From positions 1 through 64,000 of the forward strand of contig CAMDOZ010000002.1 of the NCBI GenBank assembly GCA_945903705.1: a stretch of 64,000 nt of DNA. The letters are read 5' to 3'. Shown here piece after piece: positions 58,577 to 63,470 of this stretch. Each line of letters opens with the position of its first letter. Position 1 is the stretch's first letter. Both the position numbers and the translations under genes were made by a program. Source of the DNA: Fidelibacterota bacterium (GTDB lineage Bacteria > Pseudomonadota > Alphaproteobacteria > Rhodospirillales > Rhodospirillaceae). The notes beneath the pieces are model-generated. The model ran no database searches. It saw nothing but the letters and a program-made list of their open reading frames with translations, and had not been told where the DNA came from.

Positions 58577-59512
58577 TTGATCGCTGTCACAAAAATCCGC
58601 GCGCTCACGCTCGACGCTCCGACCGCGCCGGGACGACCCGCCTATGTCAGCGCCGCGAGCGGTCTCGTCAGCCATGGCCCGTTCCTCTACGTGATCGCCG
58701 ATGACGAACATCATCTCGGGATTTTTCGGCGCGATGATCCAGCTCCGGGGACTCATGTCCGTCTGGTCGAGGGCGACCTTCCGCACGACCATAAGGCGCG
58801 CAAGACGGCGAAACCCGACTTCGAAGCTTTGACGTTCCTTCCGCCGTTCGAGGGCTATCCGCACGGCGCTCTTTTGGCCGCAGGATCGGGTTCGAAAGCC
58901 AACCGCCGCCAGGGAGCGCTATTGGGCGTTGGCGCCGACGGAGCGGTTCAAAGTGAACCCCGCGTTGCCGACCTCGGACTCTTGATGACACCGCTCGAGG
59001 CGGAGTTCGGCAAGATCAATATCGAGGGGCTGGTCATTGCCGGCGATGAACTTCGCGTTCTTCAGCGGGGCAACAAGGGTCATAGACGAAATGCAGTGGC
59101 GCGGTTCGCGCTGACGCCGTTCCTGGAGAACCTCGTGCGGGCTGGAGCGAACCCGCTCTCGCCGCTTTCCATTGCGGACTACGACCTCGGCGACATCAAA
59201 GGCGTTCCACTCACCTTTACCGATGCCGCCATGCTGCCGAACGGCGAGATGGTCTTCGCTGCGGTCGGCGAGGATACGGAGGATTCCTACGCCGACGGCC
59301 CCTGTGCCGGTACGGCCATCGGCCTCATCGGGGCAGACGGAGCGCTCCGGTGGACCGAGCCCGTAGCCGAAACCTGCAAGGTCGAAGGCGTCGGCGCCCG
59401 CCTCGACGGCGACACGCTGAATCTTCTCCTGGTCACGGACGCGGACGATATCGCCGTCCCGGCGGCCCTGTACGCGGCTGAGATCAACCGCCGAAGTGGA
59501 CAATCGCCTTAG
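58577..59512 (+). CDS. Conserved hypothetical protein (DUF6929-like beta-propeller)
   Basis: A 311-residue protein with a TTG start that follows the DUF3750 stop by 13 bases. It has repeated beta-strand blocks: SGLVSHGPFLYVIADDEHHLGIFRRDD, KPDFEALTFLPPFEGYPHGALLAAGSGS, RRQGALLGVGADGAV, INIEGLVIAGDELRVLQRGNKGHRRNAV and FTDAAMLPNGEMVFAAVGEDTEDSYADG, suggesting a beta-propeller. It resembles proteins I recall as DUF6929, moderately sure. No signal peptide. The last 29 bases overlap the convergent GNAT-like gene. Confidence 0.75.
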   Translation: MIAVTKIRALTLDAPTAPGRPAYVSAASGLVSHGPFLYVIADDEHHLGIFRRDDPAPGTHVRLVEGDLPHDHKARKTAKPDFEALTFLPPFEGYPHGALLAAGSGSKANRRQGALLGVGADGAVQSEPRVADLGLLMTPLEAEFGKINIEGLVIAGDELRVLQRGNKGHRRNAVARFALTPFLENLVRAGANPLSPLSIADYDLGDIKGVPLTFTDAAMLPNGEMVFAAVGEDTEDSYADGPCAGTAIGLIGADGALRWTEPVAETCKVEGVGARLDGDTLNLLLVTDADDIAVPAALYAAEINRRSGQSP

Positions 59513-60557
59513 GCACCAGGCGGTCCAGAGGTTCTTCCGAGGCTTTCAGCATCGCGTGAAGCGTTCGGCCCAGCATCGTCGCCCGGGTGGGGATGATGAT
59601 CATATATTCGATCGCAAGGCTGGCCCCGCGCAGTTTCTTGTAGTGCCCCGCCCCGGCGCCGAAGTTGACCACCGCCTTGCGTTCGCGACCGATCTCGAGC
59701 GCGAGCGCGAAGATCTGCCGGTAGAGGCCCGCTTTTTTGTCCGCATCGGTGCGGTAGCCGATGAGCGGCACGGAGACAAAGTCGCCGTGATCGCGAAGGG
59801 CGACAAAAGCCTGAAGTTCACCGTCCGCTTTCAGGCCGAAGAATTCCGCACCCCGCGTGTGATGCACATCGGCAAAGAAGTGCGCCGTGAGCTGCGGATT
59901 GCGGCTGCCGTGACGGCCGATATACACGGAGGTGTATTGAGCGTGCGCCGCCGCGAGGTCCGCTGGCGAAAATGCGTCGTGGCCGATGCGAACCAGCTTG
60001 GCCTTGCGCAGCAGGGCCTGATCCCGTTCGGCGTTGATCTTGTCGGGAAGCTCTCCGGCAGTGAGATCGAACGCATAGCTGACGCGGCTCGGCAGCGAGA
60101 TGCCGCCCGCGAGCGCGGCACAGGCTTTGACGGCCTCGCGTCCTGCGACAATGCCGCGGGCGACGACAACCCGCTCCGGCCAGCGGGCGGCGGCAGCCGC
60201 CAGGGCGCCTGAAAGACCATGAAGCTGGGTCGCCCCGATAGGTGAAACGGACAGGAGCGCGTTATTGACGATCGCTGCTTTGTCCGCCCCTGCGAACAGG
60301 GCCGCTTTTTCGGCGAGGCCGAGGGTAAACCGCAAGACGCGGCCAGCCGCCGTTGTGGCCGACGTCGTTTCGTCCTTCGGCGTGCCGATCAGGGCGGAGA
60401 CAAGCGACGTCAGCCAGGTCGCCTGGGACCCCTGATCCGCGTCGCCCAGCGTAACCGGCCAGCGTTTGCCGGCGGACGTTAGGATTTCCAGCCGGGCCCG
60501 GCCGTTTCCGATCCATGACGCGACGTCGCCGCCTTCAGGCGGCCAACTCATAGACAT
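59484..60557 (-). CDS. GNAT-like (FemAB-type) acyltransferase encoded with btaA
   Basis: A 357-residue protein whose last third looks like a GNAT fold: AQYTSVYIGRHGSRNPQLTAHFF, TRGAEFFGLKADGELQAFVALRD (beta hairpin), LYRQIFALALEIGRERKAVVNFGAGAGHYKKLRGA, in which FGAG...YKKLRG resembles the Acetyltransf_6/FemAB end motif, and AIEYMIIIPTRATMLGRTL. The first part, Ala-rich, is unlike known proteins to me. The ATG overlaps the btaA end by 23 bases (a second ATG at 60551 by 17). BtaB, the usual partner of BtaA, is a SAM methyltransferase; no SAM motif is visible here. Confidence 0.68.
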   Translation of the reverse strand: MSMSWPPEGGDVASWIGNGRARLEILTSAGKRWPVTLGDADQGSQATWLTSLVSALIGTPKDETTSATTAAGRVLRFTLGLAEKAALFAGADKAAIVNNALLSVSPIGATQLHGLSGALAAAAARWPERVVVARGIVAGREAVKACAALAGGISLPSRVSYAFDLTAGELPDKINAERDQALLRKAKLVRIGHDAFSPADLAAAHAQYTSVYIGRHGSRNPQLTAHFFADVHHTRGAEFFGLKADGELQAFVALRDHGDFVSVPLIGYRTDADKKAGLYRQIFALALEIGRERKAVVNFGAGAGHYKKLRGASLAIEYMIIIPTRATMLGRTLHAMLKASEEPLDRLVPKAIVHFGG

Positions 60558-61752
60558 GGAAATTCCCGTAAATACCGGAACGGTCGCGTGCATGCAGGGT
60601 GTCCGATAGCGCATCAAGACGGCGCCAGCCTGACCAGGCGCCCGACTGCAGGTAAGGCGTGAACGGCGGCAGGGTGCCGGCCGTGCGGAAGACCACGCGT
60701 GATCCCGGGCGCGCCGTACGGCCGATTTGACTCCAGAGAGCGGTGAGCGAGCGTTCGTCCATCCAATCCTGGGCGTCGAGGAGAACGTAGCGGTCGAAGG
60801 ACCCGGCTTCCTGACGCGCAAGGAACCCCGTCACGGACTCATGCACCAGGTGAAGCTGGCGGGCGCGCGTGCGCATCGCTTCGAAGTTTTCCCGTGCGAG
60901 GTAGGGCGGTAGGGCGCGGCCTTCCGCGGCCGGCGCATAGCCGTGGCTGAAAGCTTGCCACAGAAAATAGTTCTCGCTGGACTTGGCGGCGCCGGCGAGC
61001 CGTTCCGTGCGGTCGGCGAGCACGCTGGCCATGCGGTCGGGACGACCGTCGCAGAGGAGCTCGAACTGCCGCGGTGGAATGCCGAGAAGGAACAAGGGGT
61101 GCCGCAGCGAGAAGAACATCGAAAGGAGCCGCCCTTCGAACACCGGCCGCAAATGCTTACGCGCCCAGGCGCGCTGTGCATCGGCATCATCCAGAGTGAG
61201 CGCGTCCTCGAGTCGCACGCCGTGAGCGCGCGCGAGAATGCGGGAAATGGAAATGGCCGTGCCCAGCAGGCCCTTCTTGAAGAAACCCGAGACGAAATCT
61301 TCATAGCGGGCGCGGCGGCCCGCCTCCCAGTAGGCCTTGAGATCTTCCGGCAGTTTCCGTGCGATCTTATCGAGATAGAGCGCGCGGTTGCGCTCGCCGG
61401 ACGCAGCAACGAACAGGGACCGGATGTCGGCGTAGCTATCCACGGCGCCGAAAGCCGCGCGCTTGAGGCCGGCGAGGGAAAGGTGGGCGAAGTTGAGATC
61501 GATGGCCGTCACGTCCACGTCGGGGGCGGCCGTGAGATAGGAGAGCGCATTGCATCCCGCGGAACAGATGGTCGCGACCCGGTGACCCGGTGCGAGCTCC
61601 ATGGCGGCGATGTCGACTTCGGGGTCTTCCCAGATCTGGGTGTAGACCAGCCGGTCGAAACTCTTGGCAAAACTCTTGTCGCTGCGGCTTAAGGGAAGGT
61701 CGGCGCTTTGGACGGCGTCTCGGATAAGAACGGCGCTCGCTTGTTCTGACAT
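60535..61752 (-). CDS. btaA: BtaA-like S-adenosylmethionine:diacylglycerol 3-amino-3-carboxypropyltransferase
   Basis: Transfers the 3-amino-3-carboxypropyl group of S-adenosylmethionine to diacylglycerol, the first step of betaine-lipid (DGTS) synthesis. The 405-residue protein has the family block VYTQIWEDPEVD (37-48), the SAM loop ATICSAGCNALSYL (60-73), VTAIDLNFAHLSL, FVSGFFKKGLLGTAISISR and SFDRYVLLDAQDWMD. Start is the ATG at 61752 (MSEQASAVL); ATG 61770 adds six residues. Upstream and divergent is the degP gene; downstream, overlapping, is a GNAT-like gene rather than btaB. Confidence 0.88.
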   Translation of the reverse strand: MSEQASAVLIRDAVQSADLPLSRSDKSFAKSFDRLVYTQIWEDPEVDIAAMELAPGHRVATICSAGCNALSYLTAAPDVDVTAIDLNFAHLSLAGLKRAAFGAVDSYADIRSLFVAASGERNRALYLDKIARKLPEDLKAYWEAGRRARYEDFVSGFFKKGLLGTAISISRILARAHGVRLEDALTLDDADAQRAWARKHLRPVFEGRLLSMFFSLRHPLFLLGIPPRQFELLCDGRPDRMASVLADRTERLAGAAKSSENYFLWQAFSHGYAPAAEGRALPPYLARENFEAMRTRARQLHLVHESVTGFLARQEAGSFDRYVLLDAQDWMDERSLTALWSQIGRTARPGSRVVFRTAGTLPPFTPYLQSGAWSGWRRLDALSDTLHARDRSGIYGNFHVYELAA

Positions 61753-61891: not shown

Positions 61892-62045
61892 CCGAATCCC
61901 GACGCTGCAAGCGCCCACGACTCGGAACTCATTGATTTGATTGCGGGTTTTTTATTTGAAGGTAGACTGCGATTCTATCCGCCCCGCCTTGACCGGCGGA
62001 ATCCGCACCTTACATCGCAGCCCAAAGAATCAGCCGAGAACGTCC

Positions 62046-63470
62046 ATGGCCCGCGCCCGTACCATCGTCGCTACAGTCCTCGCCCTCGCGGCATTTGGCG
62101 GCACCGTTATCCTCCTGCGCGACGGCGACATCTCGCTCCCGACCTCATCGGTACAGGCGCCGCTCACGACAGCCCCCGGGACATTGCCCGCAAGCCCGAC
62201 CGGAGCCCTCCCTGCCTTCACGGACGTCTCCGACCTCGTCGAGCGCGTGACGCCGGCGGTGGTGAACATCCAAGTAAAATCCGAGGCTGTGCAGGCAAAC
62301 CTTCCGGAGATCTTCCAGGATCCCCGGTTCCGGAAGTTCTTCGGGGTTCCCGACCAACTTCCGCGCCAGGAGCGCGCCTCAACAGGGTCCGGCGTGGTGG
62401 TGGATGCGGCGCAGGGTTATGTCCTCACCAATTTTCACGTGGTCAACGAAGCGACGGATATCGCCGTCACTCTCAAGGACCGTCGCACCCTCACCGCGAC
62501 CGTCGTCGGCAAGGATCAGGCTACCGACCTCGCGCTATTGAAAATCGACGCCCAAAACCTGACCGCTCTTCCCGTCGGGGATATGTCGGATACGCGCGTG
62601 GGCGACTACGTGCTCGCCATCGGCAATCCCTTCGGCTTGGGGCAAACCGTCACCAGCGGCATCGTCTCGGCCATGGGACGCGCGGGCTTCATCGAACAGG
62701 GCTACGAGGATTTCATTCAGACCGACGCCGCCATCAATCCCGGCAACTCCGGCGGCGCTCTTGTCAATTTAAAGGGCGAACTCATCGGCATTCCAACAGT
62801 CATCATCGGACCGGGTGCGAACATCGGCATCGGTTTCGCCGTTCCGACGACGATCGCGCGCAATGTGATGGATCAGATCATCCAGTTCGGCGAAGTGAGC
62901 CGTGGACGTATTGGCGTGGCGGTTCGGGACGTCACCGCCGAGGTCGCGCAGAACCTGGGCCTTACCGTCAACCACGGCGCGCTGGTCAGCAGCGTCGAGT
63001 CCGACGCGCCCGCCGACAAAGCCGGCATCAGGGCCGGCGACGTGGTGGTCGCGCTCAACGATGTCGACCTCGACGGATCGGCGAGTCTGCGGAACCGGGT
63101 GGGCCTTGTGAAACCCGGCGACAAGGTGAAACTCACCATCGTGCGCGACGGCGAGCGCCGGGATATCGATGTAACCGTCGAGAAGGCCAGCGCCGTGCAG
63201 CAGGCGGCCGCGGCGCCGGAACCCACCACGCCCAGCCGGCTATCGGGCGCCGTGCTCGAGAACACCAGCAGCGGCGTGCGCATCCGCGATGTCGAGGAAA
63301 ATTCGCCGGCCGCCGCGGTGGGCCTGCAGGACGGCGACCTTATCAGCGCTGTCAATCGCACACCCGTGCGCACCGGCGCGGAACTCGAGGCCGCGCTCAA
63401 AACGTCGAAGGCTCAATCTGTGCTGTTCCTAGAGCGCGACGATCGTCAGATGGTGCTGGTCGTTCCGTAA
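62046..63470 (+). CDS. Periplasmic serine protease of the DegP/HtrA (Do) family
   Basis: ATP-independent protease/chaperone for envelope quality control. From the ATG at 62046 the 474-residue protein has a signal peptide or anchor (ARTIVATVLALAAFGGTVILL), a trypsin-like domain with the triad His131 (LTNFHVV), Asp161 (ATDLALL) and Ser235 (NPGNSGGAL), and two PDZ domains (RIGVAVRDVTAEVAQNLGL and onwards; LSGAVLENTSSGVRIRDVEENSPAAAVGL and onwards). The oxyanion block IGNPFGLGQTVTSGIVSAMGR is typical. It is not beside hflKC, so it is likely one of several paralogs. DegP or DegQ cannot be separated here. Confidence 0.93.
   Translation: MARARTIVATVLALAAFGGTVILLRDGDISLPTSSVQAPLTTAPGTLPASPTGALPAFTDVSDLVERVTPAVVNIQVKSEAVQANLPEIFQDPRFRKFFGVPDQLPRQERASTGSGVVVDAAQGYVLTNFHVVNEATDIAVTLKDRRTLTATVVGKDQATDLALLKIDAQNLTALPVGDMSDTRVGDYVLAIGNPFGLGQTVTSGIVSAMGRAGFIEQGYEDFIQTDAAINPGNSGGALVNLKGELIGIPTVIIGPGANIGIGFAVPTTIARNVMDQIIQFGEVSRGRIGVAVRDVTAEVAQNLGLTVNHGALVSSVESDAPADKAGIRAGDVVVALNDVDLDGSASLRNRVGLVKPGDKVKLTIVRDGERRDIDVTVEKASAVQQAAAAPEPTTPSRLSGAVLENTSSGVRIRDVEENSPAAAVGLQDGDLISAVNRTPVRTGAELEAALKTSKAQSVLFLERDDRQMVLVVP

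Follow-up and report, generated by a model that had tools for sequence, protein, structure and literature searches.

A btaA gene coupled to a GNAT gene in Rhodospirillaceae: a candidate operon for a homoserine lipid other than a betaine

The genes described here lie in the first 64,000 nucleotides of contig CAMDOZ010000002.1, from a member of the Rhodospirillaceae (the whole stretch is called the window hereafter), and comprise a btaA-like gene and a GNAT gene which overlap at 59484-61752 of the minus strand, an arrangement correctly described in an earlier note made from the letters of this DNA. BtaA moves the 3-amino-3-carboxypropyl group of S-adenosylmethionine (SAM) onto diacylglycerol to give diacylglyceryl-homoserine (DGHS), and BtaB methylates DGHS three times (PMC3972451). 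BtaA has been described as the first step to one product, the betaine lipid diacylglyceryl-trimethylhomoserine (DGTS), made together with BtaB; what is new here is a btaA gene paired with a GNAT gene. It is quite possible, at a little short of an even chance, that the two genes form an operon for a non-betaine homoserine lipid, where BtaA would make DGHS and the GNAT protein would amidate its amine. The features of the locus are the following.

60535-61752, minus strand: btaA-like gene (DUF3419; SAM:diacylglycerol 3-amino-3-carboxypropyl transferase), 405 amino acids, ATG to TGA, PF11899 E 4.5e-88
59484-60551, minus strand: GNAT gene (Acetyltransf_6; two-domain length), 355 amino acids from the ATG at 60551, PF13480 E 7.1e-8
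60535-60551, minus strand: overlap of btaA and the GNAT gene, 17 bases, equal in length in the loci L002, L003 and L111
61814-61831, minus strand: direct repeat resembling a Pho box, located some 60 bases ahead of the start of btaA and made of two GTCA half-sites set 11 bases apart

The product of btaA had been recognised from the motifs YTQIWEDPEVD and ICSAGCNALSYL; both were found in it and DUF3419 covers the whole protein (PF11899 positions 4-384 of 385), which confirms the identity. The columns invariant in BtaB-linked BtaA proteins (24 rows of type 1 and 3 of the divergent type 2) are all kept in the window, L002 and L003 (32 of 32), and of the 89 columns shared by 23 or more of the 24 type-1 rows, 79 are kept in the same three loci. 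With its core conserved, the protein looks like a functional BtaA. It is encoded by the single DUF3419 gene of the window genome (3.4 Mb, 93% complete, 240 contigs). The locus resembles the btaAB loci of Rhodobacter sphaeroides and Sinorhizobium meliloti in its BtaA core residues and in having btaA first in a tight two-gene unit. In contrast to them, the second gene encodes a GNAT protein and not BtaB, and from this gene content the product should not be trimethylated.

The second protein matches Acetyltransf_6 (PF13480) with 33.2 bits against a curated cut-off of 22, so the GNAT-like end attributed to it stands, and no methyltransferase family of Pfam or NCBIfam matched it with an E of 1 or less, in agreement with the claim that it is not a BtaB methyltransferase. 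PF13444, which comprises the OlsB-type N-acyltransferases, did not match it at E up to 1 either, and in NCBIfam neither protein of the pair reaches the cut-off of any model. It is a full-length homologue of the GNAT proteins linked to ATP-grasp and DUF3419 genes, and it keeps all 31 columns that 90% or more of 26 rows have in common. K306 and R309 are conserved in all 26 of these rows and E316 in 25.

The overlap had been given as 17-23 bases. The lower value was retained, being the same in L002, L003 and L111 (and in the annotated DUF3419-GNAT pair of a Rhizobium plasmid, L081), whereas the in-frame ATG six bases upstream of 60551, which would extend it to 23 bases, is absent in L111. Among the window, L002 and L003 the ratio of nonsynonymous to synonymous substitutions (dN/dS) was 0.08-0.09 for btaA and 0.11-0.16 for the GNAT gene, with synonymous sites near saturation; these values indicate purifying selection on both genes and, together with the conserved overlap, bear out the proposal of a functional pair. 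A chance overlap of open frames was ruled out on the same two grounds, and an assembly artefact by the position of the pair inside a 67.6-kb contig, the like gene order of L002 over about 11 kb and the recurrence of the pair in other assemblies.

Two records with the pair were identified in the search for related loci, with GNAT identities of 84% and 79%: L002, from 'Proteobacteria bacterium isolate RHODO3', and L003, from a bin labelled Candidatus Marinimicrobia and, over the locus, about 80% identical to the window. The latter label looks wrong, because a genome with the same sequence (G1267) was placed in the genus of the window. In the order the GNAT family was identified in 10 of 317 genomes, 4 with the btaA-GNAT pair (the window genome and three from the same genus) and 6 with an adjoining ATP-grasp gene. 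The sequences of L002 and L003 occur in two of the three other carriers. The fourth carrier, G1264, has 63% and 59% identity to the window genes, and among its open frames over 20 kb only the btaA-GNAT pair matches the 64-kb window. Judged from these neighbourhoods, the pair moves as a unit and recurs once in an unrelated one. No relative of the GNAT was found in the viral contigs searched.

The usual partner of btaA was surveyed in three draws of genomes, 289 from the class of the window genome, 60 from its order and 59 from its family; these numbers include the window genome itself. Matches above the DUF3419 cut-off were used, except that of the window and two short matches from the small genomes G068 and G188; the resulting 37 genes include one truncated by a contig end (L073), and five of the six from the family draw belong to one genus. 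A BtaB homologue was identified directly downstream of 36 of the 37, as expected from the claim that BtaA is usually followed by BtaB, and four extra DUF3419 genes, from genomes selected on other grounds (one each in G390, G496 and G663, and the second one of G709), adjoin BtaB as well. The lone exception, L031, has a UbiA-like gene as neighbour. At the btaA locus of the window no match to the BtaB model was found, the neighbour being the GNAT gene.

A BtaB profile was made from 14 of the BtaB neighbours of this survey. The common type scored 233-340 bits (up to 334 for proteins outside the profile) and the divergent second type 86-99 bits. The best score in the window genome was 62.9 bits, that is, no BtaB-grade protein, although a BtaB gene may have been missed because the assembly is 93% complete. 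The protein with 62.9 bits (L043) has the phospholipid N-methyltransferase PmtA model as its best NCBIfam match, under the cut-off of that model. The presence of this PmtA-like protein and the incomplete assembly in 240 contigs would suit another explanation, in which DGHS is methylated as usual by an enzyme encoded elsewhere (the PmtA-like one, or a BtaB that the assembly lacks), and the target of the GNAT protein is a protein or something else; a second btaAB pair in the genome of L002 is also in its favour. It is quite improbable given the distance between 62.9 bits and the 233-340 bits of common BtaB neighbours, the best score of only 33.4 bits, not BtaB-grade, in G710 (although its twin, G1267, is 71% complete) and the movement of btaA and the GNAT gene as a unit.

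The family of the GNAT protein has a wider set of partners. A protein search retrieved 12 distant relatives on plasmids; the neighbourhoods of all 12 were inspected, and 8 have an ATP-grasp gene close by and 4 are directly preceded by a DUF3419 gene. Of 374 genomes drawn from the family of G390, 14 have the GNAT, 11 beside ATP-grasp and 3 beside DUF3419. When these two surveys and the order search are pooled, 36 of 36 GNAT loci adjoin ATP-grasp (25) or DUF3419 (11), some plasmid and genome rows being perhaps from the same or close strains. A candidate in G070, a partial match of 20 bits, was not counted. The earlier note had not foreseen that this GNAT family is more often paired with ATP-grasp, nor that DUF3419 replaces ATP-grasp in some plasmid clusters.

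These clusters, identified in Rhizobium, Shinella, Roseateles, Paraburkholderia and Paenibacillus, comprise a ketosynthase III, an OleD-like reductase, a metallo-beta-lactamase (MBL)-fold hydrolase, an F390-synthetase-related adenylating enzyme and the GNAT; the sixth member is either ATP-grasp (often with a Rieske protein) or DUF3419. Two Deinococcus plasmids have ATP-grasp and GNAT alone. Their upstream genes were considered as DUF3419 and rejected, being ATP-grasp by BLAST to the other clusters, with Pfam ATP-grasp matches under the cut-offs. The order ketosynthase III, OleD-like reductase, MBL hydrolase, F390-synthetase-related enzyme, DUF3419 and GNAT can be seen at L081:2274-8612 (Rhizobium plasmid pMK-2), and the same cluster in L080, L082 and L084; DUF3419-GNAT was also observed in L088, L093 and L095, and ATP-grasp takes the place of DUF3419 in sister clusters. 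No paper on these clusters or their product was found, by title, among the matches listed. The window shares with them a homologous full-length GNAT and, with some, a DUF3419 gene directly upstream, at the same overlap in L081. It differs in that its pair stands alone, whereas theirs adds four genes and a DUF3419 protein without about half of the BtaA-invariant residues.

The number of origins of the DUF3419-GNAT pairing was examined with a GNAT tree of 26 rows (9 of the 11 DUF3419-linked, 15 of the 25 ATP-grasp-linked and two partnerless), a 24-row version without the partnerless rows and a DUF3419 tree of 29 rows (including 14 of the 24 type-1 BtaA rows); the groups for the constrained tests were named before testing. 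The DUF3419-linked rows are not one clade in the 26-row GNAT tree, and a single clade for them was rejected by the approximately unbiased (AU) test with 26 rows (p 0.0004) and with 24 (p 0.004). In the DUF3419 tree the window group stands with type-1 BtaA (96/94), a starred branch (100/97) separates the plasmid DUF3419 proteins, and a single clade for the GNAT-paired proteins was likewise rejected (AU p 0.007, 29 rows). A common origin of all the pairs is thus disfavoured by the AU tests on both proteins. When partner labels are counted on the DUF3419 tree with all rows two changes are needed; with five rows of other kinds omitted one origin is still possible. Because the one-clade constraint was rejected for the GNATs and for DUF3419, the pairing is counted as having arisen twice, from two DUF3419 lineages, as the trees suggest; this is likely and not certain, since long branches were flagged in every tree.

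A third context of DUF3419, near UbiA-like prenyltransferase genes, was observed at L085:523-8507 (Roseinatronobacter plasmid) and L031:1468-3606. The L085 cluster also presents phosphoenolpyruvate/pyruvate-binding and AMP-binding genes, and the DUF3419 proteins of both loci branch far from BtaA in the DUF3419 tree.

The window DUF3419 group has a long branch (1.69 and 1.38 in two trees). Together with the ketosynthase, reductase, MBL hydrolase and F390-synthetase-related clusters in which related DUF3419-paired GNATs sit, it would fit a different product: the acceptor of BtaA would not be diacylglycerol, and the GNAT would finish a small molecule, as maybe in the rhizobial plasmids. For the window this is improbable, as the profile of the F390-synthetase-related enzyme found no match in its genome, its BtaA keeps every one of the invariant residues, unlike plasmid DUF3419, and a Pho-box-like repeat would suit a membrane lipid.

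A search of the PDB chains with the GNAT profile found no match with an E of 1 or less. An AlphaFold2 model built from 3 rows has a mean predicted local distance difference test (pLDDT) of 48 and is fair only for about residues 160-300. This fair part has, as modelled, a GNAT fold, which answers the check for an acyltransferase fold that the earlier note had proposed; the fold does not tell the donor. With this part, 21 of the first 23 Foldseek matches were FemX, streptothricin-type aminoacyl-tRNA peptide synthases or domains of MprF/lysylphosphatidylglycerol (LPG) synthase. By VIA-align the model is equally close to FemX (Z 14.1, 156 residues, root-mean-square deviation (rmsd) 3.3) and to the acetyl-CoA enzyme VipF (Z 14.0, 143 residues, rmsd 3.4), with the same limit of about 160-300 on both values. 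The protein resembles FemX and MprF/LPG synthase, which are tandem GNATs with aminoacyl-tRNA donors, in its two-domain length and in the modelled GNAT core of its C-terminal half; in contrast to them, it has no match at the level of sequence among PDB chains.

The Foldseek matches and the FemX alignment favour an aminoacyl-tRNA-dependent transferase like FemX or MprF, from which the DGHS amine would gain an amino acid to give an aminoacyl-homoserine lipid. So does the acetyl-CoA loop, which in GNATs has the motif Q/RxxGxG/A and in the window reads KKAGLY, the motif not being intact. This alternative is rather unlikely, as acetyl-CoA enzymes such as VipF tie with FemX, the model, with its mean pLDDT of 48, is fair only at 160-300 and Acetyltransf_6 members carry out both aminoacyl-tRNA and acyl-CoA chemistries. 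The N-acylation of DGHS proposed in the earlier note is thus consistent with the fold and remains one of at least two possible chemistries, because the closest folds span aminoacyl and acetyl-CoA enzymes.

If the pair makes an amidated homoserine lipid, BtaA would first produce DGHS by transferring the 3-amino-3-carboxypropyl group from SAM to diacylglycerol, a step assigned because the BtaA core is fully conserved. The GNAT protein would then form an amide on the free alpha-amine of DGHS, as suggested by the coupling of the two genes and by the swap of partners between ATP-grasp and DUF3419. ATP-grasp ligases and aminocarboxypropyl transferases are unrelated, and both can leave a free alpha-amine on their product; a GNAT that caps such amines would therefore explain the swap. 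The donor would most likely be a fatty acyl group from acyl carrier protein (acyl-ACP) or coenzyme A (acyl-CoA), and the product an anionic N-acyl lipid with three chains, namely an N-acyl-homoserine whose oxygen is held by diacylglycerol. A fatty acyl thioester is favoured over aminoacyl-tRNA because fatty amide formation on amino acids is a known route to amino acid lipids, by the enzymes OlsB, GluB and GlsB, which share PF13444 (PMC11631085). The window GNAT would resemble these N-acyltransferases in the bond it forms, a fatty amide at the alpha-amine of an amino acid that is part of a membrane lipid. It differs from them, as far as that source describes them, in belonging to PF13480 and in that its substrate would be an amino acid previously attached to diacylglycerol.

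In a wider form of the proposal, possible but doubtful, the GNAT family is an amide-forming module acting on alpha-amines installed by ATP-grasp in most loci and by DUF3419, recruited at least twice, in others; the window partner would be a true BtaA and the product an O-diacylglyceryl-N-acyl (or N-aminoacyl) homoserine, perhaps under phosphate control.

Several observations weigh against the amidation of DGHS. The amide chemistry is deduced from gene context, no described member of the family of the window GNAT was found, and its closest folds include FemX (aminoacyl-tRNA) and MprF (aminoacyl lipid) besides acetyl-CoA enzymes. At least 15 other searched genomes of the genus are without a GNAT match, against 4 with one, and no DUF3419 was found in six genus members of the family draw, so the pair is patchy within the genus. 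For two further GNAT relatives (in G264 and G663), the 1.5 kb viewed on each side contains neither ATP-grasp nor DUF3419. Across all seven rows the plasmid-cluster DUF3419 proteins keep 15 of the 32 BtaA-invariant residues and therefore need not make DGHS, which lends weak support to a lipid, and these clusters may make a non-lipid product. Finally, the genome of L002 (G709) contains, besides the btaA-GNAT pair, a second and complete btaAB pair of the divergent type. The replacement of btaB by the GNAT gene, claimed in the earlier note, thus agrees with the window genome and does not hold everywhere; in the L002 genome the GNAT pair is an addition to btaAB, unless that contig is misbinned.

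The divergent btaAB pair of that genome is at L063:191-2160. The GNAT of G663 is at L060:1417-2571, with an ordinary btaAB on another contig of the same genome.

No report of the pairing of btaA and GNAT was found by title in the open-access literature, among the matches listed; no paper there names both BtaA and GNAT, and the four naming DUF3419 concern eukaryotes by title. If btaA does feed the GNAT, there would be another phosphorus-free lipid, with a negative and not zwitterionic head group, and the potential for DGTS would sometimes be wrongly called from btaA alone. In the wider form of the proposal, with a true BtaA as the DUF3419 partner in the window, the product would be a new class of membrane lipid. 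That one GNAT family has repeatedly been joined to two unrelated types of partner, both able to supply an amine, suggests that the gene clusters of rhizobial plasmids contain a family of amide-forming enzymes still to be explored. The btaA-GNAT pair is small and easy to express.

The Pho-box-like repeat upstream of btaA, a feature shared with some btaAB loci, lies within a well-conserved block common to the window, L002 and L003, with its position kept. The 16-base pattern YGTCAN6YGTCA was found twice in the window against 0.48 expected, and at least twice in 11 of 100 shuffles; the exact pattern is absent upstream of btaA in L111. The best upstream site was reached in 2 of 100 shuffles for the window, 2 for L002 and 12 for L003. 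Among 39 other BtaA loci scanned, 10 have a best site reached in no more than 2 of 100 shuffles. The ordinary btaA loci L015, L075 and L076 have clearer repeats about as far upstream, and many loci show none above background. The candidate repeat, counted in favour of the proposed homoserine lipid, is no more than suggestive of PhoB control of the pair, which may be expressed under phosphate starvation.

Divergent from btaA is a protease-like gene at 62030-63470 of the window, DegP-like by eye and without a family search. It was not found in the 20 kb of G1264 and is common to the window and L002.

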